Below, in pieces: positions 1 through 4,636 of a DNA stretch of 64,000 nt; within the stretch, counting starts at the first letter, position 1, and each line of letters begins with the position of its first letter. The stretch is from Paracoccus sulfuroxidans. GTDB taxonomy: Bacteria; Pseudomonadota; Alphaproteobacteria; Rhodobacterales; Rhodobacteraceae. The position numbers were made by a program, and so were the translations under genes. The notes below the pieces were generated by a model. That model saw only the letters and a list, made by a program, of their open reading frames with translations. It was not told the origin of the DNA and ran no database searches. The stretch lies in NCBI RefSeq assembly GCF_007830335.1, contig NZ_VLKU01000003.1:186001-250000 (forward strand), in the 5' to 3' direction.

Positions 1-697
1 GCCGAAAGCTGGCAAAGCTGCGGTTCGGGGCGTCGCTGGCCTCACCCCTCGCGCCCGGCCAGTCGAGTTCGGGGACGGCAAAGCCCTCGCGCCAGCGCTC
101 GACCGCCGTTTCCAGCGCGCGGTCGACGAAAATATCGTCGCTTTGCAGCAGATCGCGGGGCAGGACGCCGATGACCTTGACGGAAAGATGCTGGCTTTCG
201 CGGCGGTCGCCCACCTGCCGCAGCACGGTCAGGGTGACCTCATCGCCCGCCGCGGCACCGGCTGCGATGGCCAGCCGTTCGGTCAGCACCGTCTCATTGA
301 GGCCCTGCGGCACGGGAAGCCCCGCCAGCAGCGGATCGCCCGGCGCGGTCGGCAGCAAGCGCGGCTCAAGCAGTTCGCGTGTATCCGGGCCGCGCATCCG
401 CACCGAGGCCGCCAGATAGCGCGAGCGGGGCAGAAGGAAGGCCACCCGCTCATCCTTTTGCATGGTGACGAACCATTCGGGCGCAAGCTGCAGGTCGCGG
501 GCCAGCCGGATCTCGGCGATGCGCGGGTCCGAGCGCAGCCGGTCGATCAGGTTGTTCACCACCCCCAGACCCAGCCCGCCCAGCAACAGGATCGGCAGAA
601 GGGCCACCGCCACCGCCAGCATCAGGCACAGGCTGGAGCGCCAGCCGTGCCAGAGGTCGCGGATCGCCAGATAGGGAAGGATCAGCACGCCCGCCAT
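1..697 (-). CDS. FtsX-type ABC transporter permease, N-terminal part (cut by window edge)
   Basis: The reading frame starts at 697 and runs off the left edge, giving about 232 residues. The start MAGVLILPYLAIRDLWHGWRS is followed by a hydrophobic segment (about residues 19-41, VAVALLPILLLGGLGLGVVNN) and then a long soluble, presumably periplasmic region. This is the MacB/FtsX arrangement of a first transmembrane helix plus extracytoplasmic domain; the remaining helices would lie beyond the window. Its ATG overlaps the stop of the ATPase gene by one base (TGATG), so the two are translationally coupled. With the ATPase and the vWA protein it resembles TagS of the type VI secretion TagQRST/PpkA module; that is inference from context. 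A LolE-like or other mechanotransmission permease is the alternative. Confidence 0.75.
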   Translation of the reverse strand, partial: MAGVLILPYLAIRDLWHGWRSSLCLMLAVAVALLPILLLGGLGLGVVNNLIDRLRSDPRIAEIRLARDLQLAPEWFVTMQKDERVAFLLPRSRYLAASVRMRGPDTRELLEPRLLPTAPGDPLLAGLPVPQGLNETVLTERLAIAAGAAAGDEVTLTVLRQVGDRRESQHLSVKVIGVLPRDLLQSDDIFVDRALETAVERWREGFAVPELDWPGARGEASDAPNRSFASFR

Positions 698-1416
698 CAC
701 GCCGCCTCGATCTTCAGGGTGACGCGGGTCGCGACGGCGCTGCGGTCTTGCGCGACCAGACGCCACAGGACGAAGCCGCAAGAGGTCAGCAGCGCCTCTT
801 GATGGCTGCTGACGATCACCGCACGGTCGCGCGGCAGATCGGCCAGAAGCCGCATCGCGGCCCCCGCGTTCTGGCTGTCGAGCGCGGCTGTCGGCTCATC
901 GGCGAGGATCACCTGCGCCCCCGAGGCAAGCCCGCGCAGCACCGCCGCCCGCTGCCGCTGCCCACCCGACAGGGCCGAGGGGAGTTTTCCAAGAAGCGAT
1001 GCGATGCCAAGGGTTTGGGCGAGGTTCTCAATCCCGTCTGCCTGATCCGAGCGTGCCAAGCGCCGCGCCAGACGCGCATTCGCGCCGATGCTGAGATAGG
1101 GCAGCAGGCCGCCATCCTGCAGGATATAGCTGATGTGCCGCCGCCGCATGCGGGTCAGGCGGCGCATGCGGCCGCGCGTCAGATCCTGCGCAATATCGCG
1201 TCCCGAAAGCTGGAAGTGCCGCAGGCTGTCGGGCCGACGGATCAGCGCCAATATGTCCAGAAGCGTGCTTTTCCCGATGCCGCTTTCGCCCACCAGTCCG
1301 ATGCGCGCGCCGGGCCAGACGGTCAGGCGCGGGATCTCCAGCCGATAGGCGGGGCTGCCCGTGCGGCCAGCACGGGTCAGCACCAGATCGGCAAGGTCAA
1401 AGCAGGCCGCGTTCAT
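697..1416 (-). CDS. ABC transporter ATP-binding protein (LolD/MacB/TagT type)
   Basis: A 239-residue nucleotide-binding subunit with Walker A GESGIGKST (about 43-51), signature LSGGQRQR and Walker B VILADEPTAALD, followed by the switch His in SSHQEAL. The length and the pairing with a single FtsX-type permease fit the MacB/LolD family, which uses ATP for mechanical work across the membrane rather than classical import. It begins 7 bases after the vWA gene stop and overlaps the permease start, so vWA-ATPase-permease is one operon. Function inferred: energises the permease in a cell-envelope process linked to the vWA protein; TagT of type VI secretion is the closest named idea. Confidence 0.85.
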   Translation of the reverse strand: MNAACFDLADLVLTRAGRTGSPAYRLEIPRLTVWPGARIGLVGESGIGKSTLLDILALIRRPDSLRHFQLSGRDIAQDLTRGRMRRLTRMRRRHISYILQDGGLLPYLSIGANARLARRLARSDQADGIENLAQTLGIASLLGKLPSALSGGQRQRAAVLRGLASGAQVILADEPTAALDSQNAGAAMRLLADLPRDRAVIVSSHQEALLTSCGFVLWRLVAQDRSAVATRVTLKIEAA

Positions 1417-1423
1417 GCGTGCG

Positions 1424-4400
1424 TCAGGGCAGGTTCGTCAGGCGCACCGGCGTCGCCTCAAGCCCCGGATCGCCCGCGCCGAAATCGGCCCAGATCCCGG
1501 TTTCACCGAACAGGTCGGCATAGATGCGCCGCTTGGTTTCCAGGTTCTCGATGAACTCCTGCTGCTGGCTGACCGACATCGAGGACCAGTAGGATTGGTC
1601 CAGACGCAGGACCTGGCTGCGATAGGGCAGCTTTTTCAGGAAGCTCGGCAGGATCGCCTCGATCGTGGCGCGGTCGCCCTGACGCAGGCTGTCGGGGTCG
1701 GTCGAGGTCTGCGCCGCGAGCATCTGCAGATTGGCAAAGAAGGCCTGCGGGTCCTGACCACCGCTGCGGAAGGCCTGAATGATCGCCTCTAGCCGCTTGT
1801 CGAGCGTCGAAAGCTGGTTGCGGGTCAGATAGGCGCTGACCTCCAGCGTTTCGACATCCGGGTTCGCCAGATCGCGATCCGCAGCCCAGCCCGCAAGGAA
1901 GGCCGGGGCGGCGCTGCCTTCGACACGGCCAAGGCTTTCCAGCTGCGCGCGGAAGATCTCATTCCCGACGATCTGCGACAGGCGGCCGGTTTCCGGGGCC
2001 TCGGCCGGGGCGGCCTCGGGTGCTGCGTCCGGCATGGGCTCCATCGCCTCGGACCCGTCGCGCAGAACCTCGCCTGCGTTTGCCTGCATGGTTTTGGTGG
2101 CCAGATCGCGCGCCATTTCGGTCAGCTCGCGCCCGAAAGTGTCGTCGGTCGTGGCATCCAGCGCGAGATATTTGTTCTCGGCCAGATCGCCGGTCTGCGC
2201 GAGTTTCTGGTACTGGGTGCGGGCGATCTCGGCATCTCCGGCCTTGTCATTGGCCGGGGTCAGCAGATGGATCGGAACGATGGTGATGTTCTGGGCGCGG
2301 GCCTTCTCGCTCAGCCGCTCCAGCGTCATGTCGGGATATTTCGCCTTGGCGTCGGTGCGGGCCGAGGCGTCGGTCACCAGCACGATCAGCCGCGCGTCGA
2401 AGGGCGTCCAGTCATTCTCATCGATGGCGTCGACGACACCGGCGATGGCATCTTCGGCAAAGCCCAGGTTCGAGACCTTGGCCTCTTCAATCCGGCGCAT
2501 GTTGCTGAGCAGGCTTTGCGGCGGCGCGTCCGGATCAAGCGGCTGGAAGTTGCGGGTGACATATTCCAGCTTCTCGGGGTCGGTTTCGATGGTGTCGCGG
2601 AAGCCCATCAGGCCGAATGAGACATATTTCGCGCTCTCGAGCTTGCTGAACGCGTCGTAGAAGCCCTGAATCGCGTCATAGGTGCGGTCGATGAAGGGTC
2701 GCATCGAGACCGTGGTGTCGACCACGAAGACGACGCCCACGCGGAATTCGTCATCGTTTTCGGCGGCCTTCGCAGCCGAGGACTGGAAGCTCGCATCATC
2801 ACGCTCGCCGATGTTGGCGGCAGGCTGGGCGGGCAGGGCCGCGACCTTGACCAGCGTCGTATCCTCGGTGCCGTCGAACATCTCATGCCGCCAGTCGAGG
2901 ATCGGCAGCAGATAGGGCTTGTCGTCGAAGCGGACCGCTGTTTCGGGCTCGATCGCGACGAGGTCGGGGTTCCAGGCGGGCTGATGGCCGGGGTCGTTCG
3001 CCAGCTTGCGACGCTCTTCGGTCAGCTTGTCATAGATGCCAAGCGCGCTGGTCTGATAGAAGGGGCCCGAGATCATGTCGGTCAGGGGCGCGTCGCTGCC
3101 GAAGAACAGCACGCGGTTGCGTTTGCCGCGCGGGGCGAACTGCATCACCAGCATTGAGGACCAGTCGAGCGCCTCGGCATTGCGGGTCCAGCCGACGGGC
3201 GCGGCATTGAGCGCGCTGCCGACCTGCAGCCATTCCTCGCCGCCCAGATCGCGCCGTTCGAAGACGTAAAGCACCGAGAAGGCGGCCATGGCGCGGCCCG
3301 GCTCGGTCACGCCGGGGGCGTCGTGGACCTGCATCTGCGGCATCGAGATCACGCGCTGGAAAAGCTCGGGGTTGTCCGCGACGGTCAGGGGCGTCAGGCC
3401 GGGTTCGGGGGCCTCGGCAGGGGCGGCGTCGGCGGTTTCGGTGCCGCTTTCGGGTGCGACGGTTGCCGTTTCTTCGGGGACAGGCTCCATGCTTTCGGCA
3501 GCATCGGCAGCATCGGCAGCATCGGCAGCATCGGCAGCATCGGCAGCATCGGCTGTGGTGCTGGTTTCCGTGCTGTCAGTGGGTGCGGCTTGCGGCTCGG
3601 GCTCGGCGCTGGCAACGACAGGGGCGTCGGTCTGAGGCTCCGGATCGGAGGTGGCCGCAGTCTCGGGTTCAGCAGCGGCGGGGGTTTCCAGCTCTGCCGG
3701 GGCCGCATCTGCAACGGCGGTCGCTGAGGTTTCGGGCTGAGCCTCCGGTTGCGCGGGGGCGGGCGTGGCCCCTGCGGTATCCTTGGGGGTTTCTGCCTCG
3801 GGCGAAGGCGCTTCGACATCAGCCTCCGCAGTCGCCGGGGCTTCAGGCAGAGTTGGGGCAGGCGTGGCCGTCACGGCCTCCGGCTCGGACGGGGGCGTTT
3901 CTGCCTCGGCTGTCTCGGTGGGGGCCTCGGTGCCATCGGTTTCAGGCACGGCCTCGGCGGCGCTCTTGGCGGCGGGCTTCGCCTCTGCCGTGTCTTCCAC
4001 GGTCGGCCCGGCCTTTGCGATATGCTCGGGGACGCCGGTGACCTTGGGGGCGGCTGGAACTTCCCCATTCTCAAGCCGCGTGATCGCATCCTCGCGCGCT
4101 TCGATCTCGGCCTGCGCGGTCGCGATCAGCTTCTTGATCACCTCGATCTTGGCGAGTTCCTGGGTCAGCGGCTGCGAGCAGCCCTTCGCATCCCCCAGCT
4201 CAAAAGCCGGAGGCGGCGGCAGGGCAGGGGCATCGGCCAGCATTGCCACATCGGCGCGCGCGGCCAGATCGCTGACCCGCAGTTCCTGCCCGTCGATGCG
4301 TGCCTGCAGGCGGCGCAGATTGCGCGTGACCGAATTCACCTCAAGCGAAAGCGAGATCTTTTCGGCCTGATATTGCGGCACGCAGGCTTCCTGAGCATGC

Positions 4401-4453
4401 CCCGCCGATGCGAGGAGGACGCCTGCGATAACGGTCCGGCGCAGATATGCCAT
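1424..4453 (-). CDS. secreted von Willebrand factor A protein, PpkA-like extracytoplasmic region without a kinase
   Basis: 1009 residues. A signal peptide (MAYLRRTVIAGVLLASAGHA, cleavage near 20) is followed by a charged, probably helical region (about 25-135), a long Ala/Glu/Pro/Thr-rich low-complexity stretch (about 140-370) containing six DAA repeats, a segment with PVGWT that looks like an SH3-type fold, and a vWA domain whose metal site begins VFVVDTTVSM near residue 575. The metal motif is DTTVS rather than DxSxS. The GWT segment, the vWA domain and the C-terminal 400 residues recall the C-terminal half of PpkA, the type VI secretion Ser/Thr kinase, but no kinase domain is present. It is the first gene of an operon with the ABC pair. 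Family by recognition; role inferred. Confidence 0.75.
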   Translation of the reverse strand: MAYLRRTVIAGVLLASAGHAQEACVPQYQAEKISLSLEVNSVTRNLRRLQARIDGQELRVSDLAARADVAMLADAPALPPPPAFELGDAKGCSQPLTQELAKIEVIKKLIATAQAEIEAREDAITRLENGEVPAAPKVTGVPEHIAKAGPTVEDTAEAKPAAKSAAEAVPETDGTEAPTETAEAETPPSEPEAVTATPAPTLPEAPATAEADVEAPSPEAETPKDTAGATPAPAQPEAQPETSATAVADAAPAELETPAAAEPETAATSDPEPQTDAPVVASAEPEPQAAPTDSTETSTTADAADAADAADAADAADAAESMEPVPEETATVAPESGTETADAAPAEAPEPGLTPLTVADNPELFQRVISMPQMQVHDAPGVTEPGRAMAAFSVLYVFERRDLGGEEWLQVGSALNAAPVGWTRNAEALDWSSMLVMQFAPRGKRNRVLFFGSDAPLTDMISGPFYQTSALGIYDKLTEERRKLANDPGHQPAWNPDLVAIEPETAVRFDDKPYLLPILDWRHEMFDGTEDTTLVKVAALPAQPAANIGERDDASFQSSAAKAAENDDEFRVGVVFVVDTTVSMRPFIDRTYDAIQGFYDAFSKLESAKYVSFGLMGFRDTIETDPEKLEYVTRNFQPLDPDAPPQSLLSNMRRIEEAKVSNLGFAEDAIAGVVDAIDENDWTPFDARLIVLVTDASARTDAKAKYPDMTLERLSEKARAQNITIVPIHLLTPANDKAGDAEIARTQYQKLAQTGDLAENKYLALDATTDDTFGRELTEMARDLATKTMQANAGEVLRDGSEAMEPMPDAAPEAAPAEAPETGRLSQIVGNEIFRAQLESLGRVEGSAAPAFLAGWAADRDLANPDVETLEVSAYLTRNQLSTLDKRLEAIIQAFRSGGQDPQAFFANLQMLAAQTSTDPDSLRQGDRATIEAILPSFLKKLPYRSQVLRLDQSYWSSMSVSQQQEFIENLETKRRIYADLFGETGIWADFGAGDPGLEATPVRLTNLP
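3497..3550 (-). repeat. 9-bp in-frame tandem repeat encoding Asp-Ala-Ala
   Basis: Six perfect copies of GGCAGCATC on the plus strand, read on the minus strand as Asp-Ala-Ala triplets inside the low-complexity linker of the vWA protein. Copies are identical at nucleotide level, so slippage could change linker length by three residues without a frameshift. Confidence 0.9.
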
Positions 4454-4607: not shown

Positions 4608-4636
4608 AATATGAACAGAGGTGAAAACGATGGCAA
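4608..4636 (-). promoter_or_regulatory. candidate sigma70-type promoter for the vWA/ABC operon
   Basis: On the minus strand TTGCCA (4636-4631) and CATATT (4613-4608) are separated by 17 bases, 5/6 and 4/6 matches to the housekeeping hexamers. They lie about 155 bases before the vWA start. The 271-base gap 4454-4724 also holds a nested inverted repeat at 4502-4537 (GACCG/CGGTC inside TCAGG/CCTGA) in the expected leader. Prediction from sequence only. Confidence 0.35.

Follow-up and report, generated by a model that had tools for sequence, protein, structure and literature searches.

A six-gene operon of Paracoccus sulfuroxidans that resembles the sensory part of type VI secretion loci and lacks the PpkA kinase domain

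The window analysed here is a 64,000-nucleotide stretch of the Paracoccus sulfuroxidans genome (contig NZ_VLKU01000003.1, or C3; C3:186001-250000 of a 4.04-Mb, 24-contig assembly), and at its left end lies part of an operon with the gene order vWA-TagT-TagS-TagR-TagQ-protease. Judged by sequence similarity, the first four genes and, more tentatively, the TagQ-like fifth correspond, in order, to the sensory part of canonical type VI secretion system (T6SS) loci, with the kinase domain of PpkA absent from the von Willebrand factor A (vWA) protein. We lean towards reading the operon as a kinase-less PpkA/TagQRST envelope-damage sensor that is uncoupled from the T6SS and whose likely output is the co-encoded protease. 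The genes beyond the left end of the window were read from C3:172001-192000 (locus L009), and the operon and the parts of its vWA protein are as follows, with coordinates those of the window unless C3 is named.

1424..4453, minus strand: vWA protein, 1009 amino acids (aa), kinase-less counterpart of the PpkA extracytoplasmic half
4394..4453, minus strand: putative signal peptide, vWA residues ~1-20, read by eye
4034..4393, minus strand: N-terminal region of apparently coiled-coil-like make-up, vWA residues ~21-140, judged by eye
3398..4033, minus strand: Ala/Pro/Glu/Thr-rich stalk, vWA residues ~141-352
1424..3397, minus strand: PpkA-like extracytoplasmic region with GW segment, vWA domain and C-terminal domain
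2705..2719, minus strand: metal ion-dependent adhesion site (MIDAS) DTTVS, vWA residues 579-583
697..1416, minus strand: TagT-like ATP-binding cassette (ABC) ATPase, 239 aa (PF00005, E 1.3e-23)
1..697 and on to C3:185480, minus strand: TagS-like FtsX-type permease, 405 aa, N-terminal part in the window
C3:183556-185487, minus strand, outside the window: TagR-like FGE protein, 643 aa
C3:182729-183535, minus strand, outside the window: TagQ-like protein, 268 aa
C3:181269-182732, minus strand, outside the window: trypsin-like protease with PG_binding_1 domain, 487 aa

All of these genes are on the minus strand, and the gaps or overlaps between them are at most ~20 bases. The permease starts with the ATG at 697 in a TGATG overlap with the ATPase stop codon; the Pfam scan and the comparison with canonical TagS used a 406-aa reading from the GTG at 700. 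An earlier note on the window had described the first three open reading frames (ORFs), which we recover at the same positions, the permease running off the left window end. It had also proposed extending the sequence to the left in search of a kinase, phosphatase, lipoprotein or tss gene; the extension completes the TagS gene and adds a TagR-like and a TagQ-like gene, and neither ORF listing nor Pfam scan found a kinase, phosphatase or tss gene in the operon. No Fha, PppA, TagF or tss gene was found at the operon locus, where ORFs were listed for ~9 kb downstream and 7.5 kb upstream and some of them were searched against Pfam.

Canonical loci for comparison came from searching 378 genomes of the phylum with a TagQ profile; six genomes scored above the curated cut-off, and the loci of three (L169, L170, L173) were fetched. 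All three have the order Fha-TssK-TssL-TssM-phosphatase-PpkA-TagT-TagS-TagR-TagQ, with kinase and vWA half in one ORF; the L169 PpkA has a PF00069 kinase domain (E 7e-46) and a transmembrane (TM) segment at 336-354. The operon shares with the PpkA-TagQRST pathway of the H1-type T6SS of Pseudomonas aeruginosa the PpkA extracytoplasmic half, TagT, TagS and TagR in the same order, followed by a putative TagQ. Among the differences, the vWA protein lacks the kinase and the TM segment; their place is taken by the stalk, the coiled-coil-like region and what by eye is a signal peptide, and a peptidoglycan-binding protease is added.

Residues 352-1009 of the vWA protein align with residues 399-1016 of the L169 PpkA (32% identity, 318 bits, E 3e-97), and hhalign gives a probability of 100 over 611 columns, bearing out the suggestion that the C-terminal part recalls the extracytoplasmic half of PpkA. 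The similarity spans ~660 residues, and the 318 bits compare with 16.7 bits for the Pfam VWA model, which is below its cut-off of 23.8; the likeness to PpkA is more than a generic vWA match, and both checks proposed in the earlier note speak for its reading. Pfam gives two sub-threshold vWA models only and NCBIfam lists no match. As had been proposed, a putative signal peptide and a low-complexity stalk stand in place of the kinase: Pfam gives no Ser/Thr kinase match at E 1 in the 1009 aa, and a Kyte-Doolittle scan lists no TM segment. The 212-residue stalk contains 62 Ala, 34 Pro, 34 Glu and 29 Thr, with six DAA units at residues 302-319.

The GWT segment and the DTTVS metal site of the earlier note are real and conserved in an alignment of 100 rows that includes three duplicate loci and three canonical PpkAs; these rows are homologues found by search, and show conservation only. 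Residues D579, S583 and D695 are invariant (100/100), residue 581 is Thr in 95 rows and Ser in five, and W422 of the GWT segment is Trp in 99/100. An AlphaFold model of the PpkA-like region (mean pLDDT 78.8, pTM 0.79) matches vWA/integrin-I folds in the PDB (815 matches in all), and among the 50 listed the model-normalised TM-score never exceeds 0.27, so that none of these 50 spans the whole PpkA-like half.

Counterparts of TagT, TagS and TagR follow in canonical order. The ATPase is 42% identical to the L169 TagT over 207 aa (E 4e-39) and the permease 35% identical to the L169 TagS (E 8e-59), in agreement with the TagTS assignment made from the window alone. The TagR-like protein has an FGE-sulfatase domain (PF03781, E 2.3e-18), one N-terminal hydrophobic segment and 26% identity to the L169 TagR (E 5e-29). 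The TagQ-like product is a glycine-zipper protein encoded at the canonical TagQ place, and its best NCBIfam match is TagQ (NF041250, E 9.8e-19). In a hydrophobic-segment scan TagS is the sole operon product that clearly crosses the inner membrane.

The only Hanks kinase found in the genome lies elsewhere, on contig C6, within a T6SS locus.

L053:13528 to L072:12311 (contig C6, ~68.5-107 kb): T6SS locus

Its genes encode DUF6931, Fha, ImpA_N (TssA-like), TssB, TssC, TssG and AAA+ (ClpV-like) ATPase proteins, as well as TssK, TssL, TssM, TagF, a phosphatase, the kinase and VgrG-type proteins. The 662-aa kinase protein is not similar to the vWA half (probability 0.1 in hhalign), the only vWA-half match in the genome is the window's own, and no TagQRST match was found in the C6 T6SS stretches that were read. 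The locus also contains ORFs of 741 aa (L054:10777-13002, with a Peptidase_M23 domain) and 2200 aa (L054:13086-19688).

The six-gene operon was found in nine genomes: that of the window, Pseudogemmobacter bohemicus, P. hezensis, Paracoccus sp. IB05, Ruegeria halocynthiae, Pseudooceanicola pacificus, Pseudaestuariivita atlantica (G072), Albidovulum sp. (G014) and Oceanicella sp. (G263). These loci form one clade (9/97 tree rows, SH-aLRT 99) in an unrooted tree built by a quick method, with several long branches and with the duplicate loci L076, L078 and L081 dropped beforehand. TssC and TssK were not found in seven of the nine genomes, among them the three closest relatives; the window's genome and G263 have both. 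No PF00069 kinase was found at E 1e-6 in three of the nine (G014, G072, G398), and the others have one or two. With the T6SS components or the kinase missing in several of these species, the sensor can hardly act there via a T6SS or a PpkA-type kinase, which supports the earlier proposal of a module separate from phosphorylation control. SrfB was found in none of the nine; control genomes gave none either, and the profile works in the family search described below.

The last gene of the operon encodes a protein with an N-terminal PG_binding_1 domain, a Trypsin_2 domain (Pfam) and the serine motif GNSGGP, a motif that we read in six trypsin-like proteases. It shares the Trypsin_2 domain and GNSGGP motif with the HtrA/DegS/MarP serine proteases, but it has the N-terminal PG_binding_1 domain, and no PDZ domain is listed at E 1 or better (Pfam); a hydrophobic-segment scan lists no TM segment. 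A profile built on eight trypsin-like proteases, those of L061 and L062 and six of the six-gene loci, matches in all nine six-gene loci (the window via L009), in 8/21 loci linked to srfABC as first fetched, and in one of six kinase-adjacent loci (L062, a profile member). The nine loci group in a single clade, so the protease belongs stably to the operon and is no chance neighbour.

Among other Rhodobacteraceae the vWA-Tag module recurs in different company. The vWA half was found at E 1e-5 in 33/394 genomes of the family, and SrfB (PF07520) in 24/394, all 24 of which are vWA-positive; the two genes lie on the same contig within 7.2 kb in 20/24 and on different contigs, in fragmented assemblies, in four. 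In these sister loci the module adjoins srfABC. The protease sat at the edge of the first-fetched stretches; with longer srf flanks, read in 18 of the 24 SrfB genomes, it lies directly upstream of srfA in 17/18, the exception being L199; of the remaining six genomes one (G073, locus L061) is represented in the protease profile and five with fragmented loci were left out. Three srf-linked proteases that we scanned consist of an N-terminal part, one TM segment and then the trypsin part, with Trypsin_2 placed in L193. Among further loci, L200 gives a weak profile match on an ORF that also matches SrfC, and L201 a clear one. L062 (G171) and L201 (G051) encode the order trypsin domain-TM-FHA domain, and next to the vWA gene they have a kinase-TM gene; both genomes lack TssC and TssK. 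In this arrangement a phosphorylation route to the protease is possible. The same sensor would be wired in sister loci to srfABC and a membrane-tethered protease, or to a kinase and a protease-TM-FHA fusion. The SrfB-vWA association was read in loci within L060-L071 and L182-L199, and the L061 protein encoded immediately upstream of vWA has a TM segment and, by eye, a Sel1-like tail that gives no Pfam match; the trypsin-TM-FHA proteins adjoin TagTSR at L062:1890-10336 and L201:1396-10991.

A wider scan of GTDB species genomes confirmed 316 relatives, of which 80 were kept. Because short contigs are common among them and the fused PpkA of the L169 comparison is not matched by the scan motifs, counts from the 80 loci are no family or kinase-fusion frequencies. 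TagS is present in all 80 and TagT within 1.5 kb in 79 (in L129 it is ~2.9 kb away), TagR in 33, TagQ in 22, SrfB in 10 and a separate kinase gene in seven; kinase fusion was seen in none, TssK with TssM in one (L112, Inquilinus limosus), and TssC in 12/32 genomes checked. A kinase gene precedes the vWA gene in L085, L086, L089, L098 and L101, and the L085 kinase has a TM segment and, towards its end, a Sel1 match below threshold. In 20/52 long loci vWA is preceded by a small protein that belongs to one cluster; among those read, L105 has a Sel1 match above cut-off, L103 one below it, and L133 has a TM segment. In nine of the 52 (L111, L131, L134, L135, L138, L139, L142, L144, L145) leuS- and lptE-cluster genes, so named from L111 alone, lie upstream of the small protein, vWA, TagT and TagS, with a holA-cluster gene downstream in 7/9; no T6SS genes were found in the stretches of these nine. 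These forms suggest a vWA-TagT-TagS core to which the kinase is an optional addition at the front, a polarity of which the unrooted tree is no proof.

How the operon might work can be sketched by analogy. TagQ, as an outer-membrane lipoprotein, and TagR would detect a disturbance of the outer membrane or the cell wall, while the vWA protein with its MIDAS would bridge the periplasm on its long stalk. TagR and the vWA protein, the latter through its metal site, may engage the large LolC/E-type periplasmic domain of TagS, and ATP hydrolysis by TagT would power a conformational change. With no predicted cytoplasmic part in the vWA protein and no kinase, a periplasmic output is probable, and because only TagS clearly crosses the inner membrane we take it to be the periplasmic, peptidoglycan-bound protease, which is probably activated or positioned in an FtsEX-EnvC-like manner. 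FtsEX acts on wall hydrolases through EnvC.

Several points weigh against this reading. Envelope damage as the signal is extrapolated from P. aeruginosa, and both sensing and protease activation by the kinase-less copy are deductions; our literature search met no experiment on such a copy. The TagQ-like protein scores 67.8 bits against NF041250, whose curated cut-off is 300, and its BLASTP similarity to the L169 TagQ covers 123 aa only (29%, E 4e-4). The members of the protease profile (L061, L062 and the six-gene proteases) are positive by construction, and the profile gives no match in the fetched stretches of 30 TagTS-only, 11 TagTSR-only and 16 short-contig loci, nor in those of the split-kinase T6SS locus and the three canonical T6SS loci; the protease is therefore not a general part of the module. 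The Lol-like fold of the modelled TagS would suit a lipoprotein-handling role too. Within the family, TssC is enriched in vWA-bearing genomes (17/33 versus 85/361 others, Fisher p 0.0013), which leaves room for a T6SS link in some species.

This enrichment also speaks for control of the T6SS in trans, in which the module would feed the C6 PpkA, a protein without a vWA half, as a split PpkA. The C6 locus has Fha, TagF, a phosphatase and a kinase protein unlike the vWA half, the T6SS stretches that were read gave no second TagQRST, and Inquilinus limosus provides a possible split PpkA within a T6SS locus (L112:483-13839), with the kinase and the vWA half on separate overlapping ORFs. We nevertheless consider this unlikely: the absence of TssC and TssK from most six-gene genomes, close relatives included, argues against it, and in no genome do the best TssC match and the vWA gene share a contig at a distance under 100 kb (0/17, in draft assemblies; with the best match per genome considered, one pair is 775 kb apart and the rest lie on different contigs). 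Quite unlikely, too, is a Lol-like machine in which TagTS would sort or extract TagQ or some client lipoprotein, and the vWA protein and TagR would serve in the periplasm as carriers or chaperones. The family name of TagQ marks it as a lipoprotein, the vWA-TagT-TagS genes of the nine gammaproteobacterial loci lie just downstream of the lptE-cluster gene, and a model of a TagS 65% identical to that of the window (L073 protein, pLDDT 89) has LolC/LolE as its best PDB matches by E-value. However, the 50 matches listed also include the signalling or mechanotransmission proteins MacB, YtrF (highest TM-score), BceB and, lower down, FtsX, to which the fold is common; the window TagS is far below the NCBIfam cut-offs for LolC (25.8 bits versus 473) and LolCE (16.2 versus 362.45); and the protease and the kinase fusion would be left unexplained. 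LolCDE, FtsEX and MacB-type systems are type VII ABC systems, and from LolCDE the operon differs further in the partners of TagS, which are TagR, TagQ and the vWA protein.

A role of the module in exporting or activating SrfABC-type proteins would accord with the presence of the vWA gene in every SrfB genome of the family, mostly close by on the same contig, but we judge it very improbable, and with SrfB found in none of the six-gene genomes SrfABC export cannot be the function here. A SrfABC partner in the window's genome is rejected likewise, as SrfB was not found. The chance that the window holds a generic vWA adhesin beside an unrelated MacB/LolD-type exporter, its likeness to PpkA and TagTS coincidental, is practically negligible: the Pfam vWA match is weak and the ATPase matches many families, yet the alignment runs across the whole PpkA half, five corresponding genes stand in canonical order, and the TagS-TagT association holds throughout the retained loci. 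The comparisons with PpkA, TagT, TagS, TagR and TagQ of L169 reject this adhesin reading.

A broader proposal, which we hold tentatively and think possible more than probable, is that vWA-TagT-TagS, free of the kinase, constitutes a general envelope-surveillance engine of Proteobacteria, with the T6SS 'tit-for-tat' sensor as one of several outputs; the others would be the peptidoglycan-bound protease, srfABC with a tethered protease, a kinase with the protease-TM-FHA fusion, or none, downstream of the lptE-like gene. In the six-gene form, cytoplasmic ATP hydrolysis would then switch on a periplasmic protease, an FtsEX-like signal from inside to outside rather than from outside to inside.

Outer-membrane damage in P. 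aeruginosa is sensed through TagQRST-PpkA according to passages of PMC11881912 and PMC10482370, and how it is turned into local T6SS assembly is called unresolved in a passage of the former. Parts of PMC3608642 (2013) describe srfABC with hap-like, ligA, tagQ, ppkA and mostly tagRST genes in host-associated Deltaproteobacteria, only one of whose genomes has T6SS machinery, suggest there export or activation of SrfC, and call the function of the srfABC operon unclear. On the strength of these parts, T6SS-free occurrence of tagQRST/ppkA is already known, from this paper alone among those that our search met, and the neighbourhood resembles the operon in having tagQ, ppkA and mostly tagRST outside a T6SS; its 'Hap-like' gene may match the trypsin-like protease. 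The six-gene form differs from what is described there in lacking SrfB and in having its protease at the operon end, without TM segment and with PG_binding_1. The 'Srf' names in PMC11258249 are those of Rickettsia effectors and were set aside as a name collision. Neither the kinase-less six-gene form nor the recurrent Rhodobacteraceae protease, the 24/24 SrfB association or the stand-alone gammaproteobacterial form came up in our literature search. In natural sensor copies that lack kinase or T6SS, sensing is set apart from firing, and this opens the sensor's biochemistry (vWA-TagR-TagS contacts, use of ATP, protease output) to testing by itself. The protease that recurs is a concrete candidate output, the added protease, the missing kinase and the position away from the T6SS genes together suggest that the sensor serves other responses besides the T6SS, and the srfABC link gives a handle on that operon.

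Regulatory features around the operon are faint. No 9-mer upstream is common to at least four of eight sequences (the window and seven six-gene relatives), and the weak consensus matches in the 10-kb region amount to two sigma-70-like sites on both strands (0.7 expected) and 11 terminator-like sites (6.0 expected), including one that follows the protease gene. One sigma-70-like site lies upstream of the vWA gene.

4608..4636, minus strand: weak sigma-70-like site, consensus match only

The upstream neighbours of the operon are branched-chain amino acid transporter genes (PF02653, PF12399), and ~450 bases downstream of it lies a gene on the minus strand for a 949-aa protein with RTX calcium-binding repeats (L009:5971-8820).

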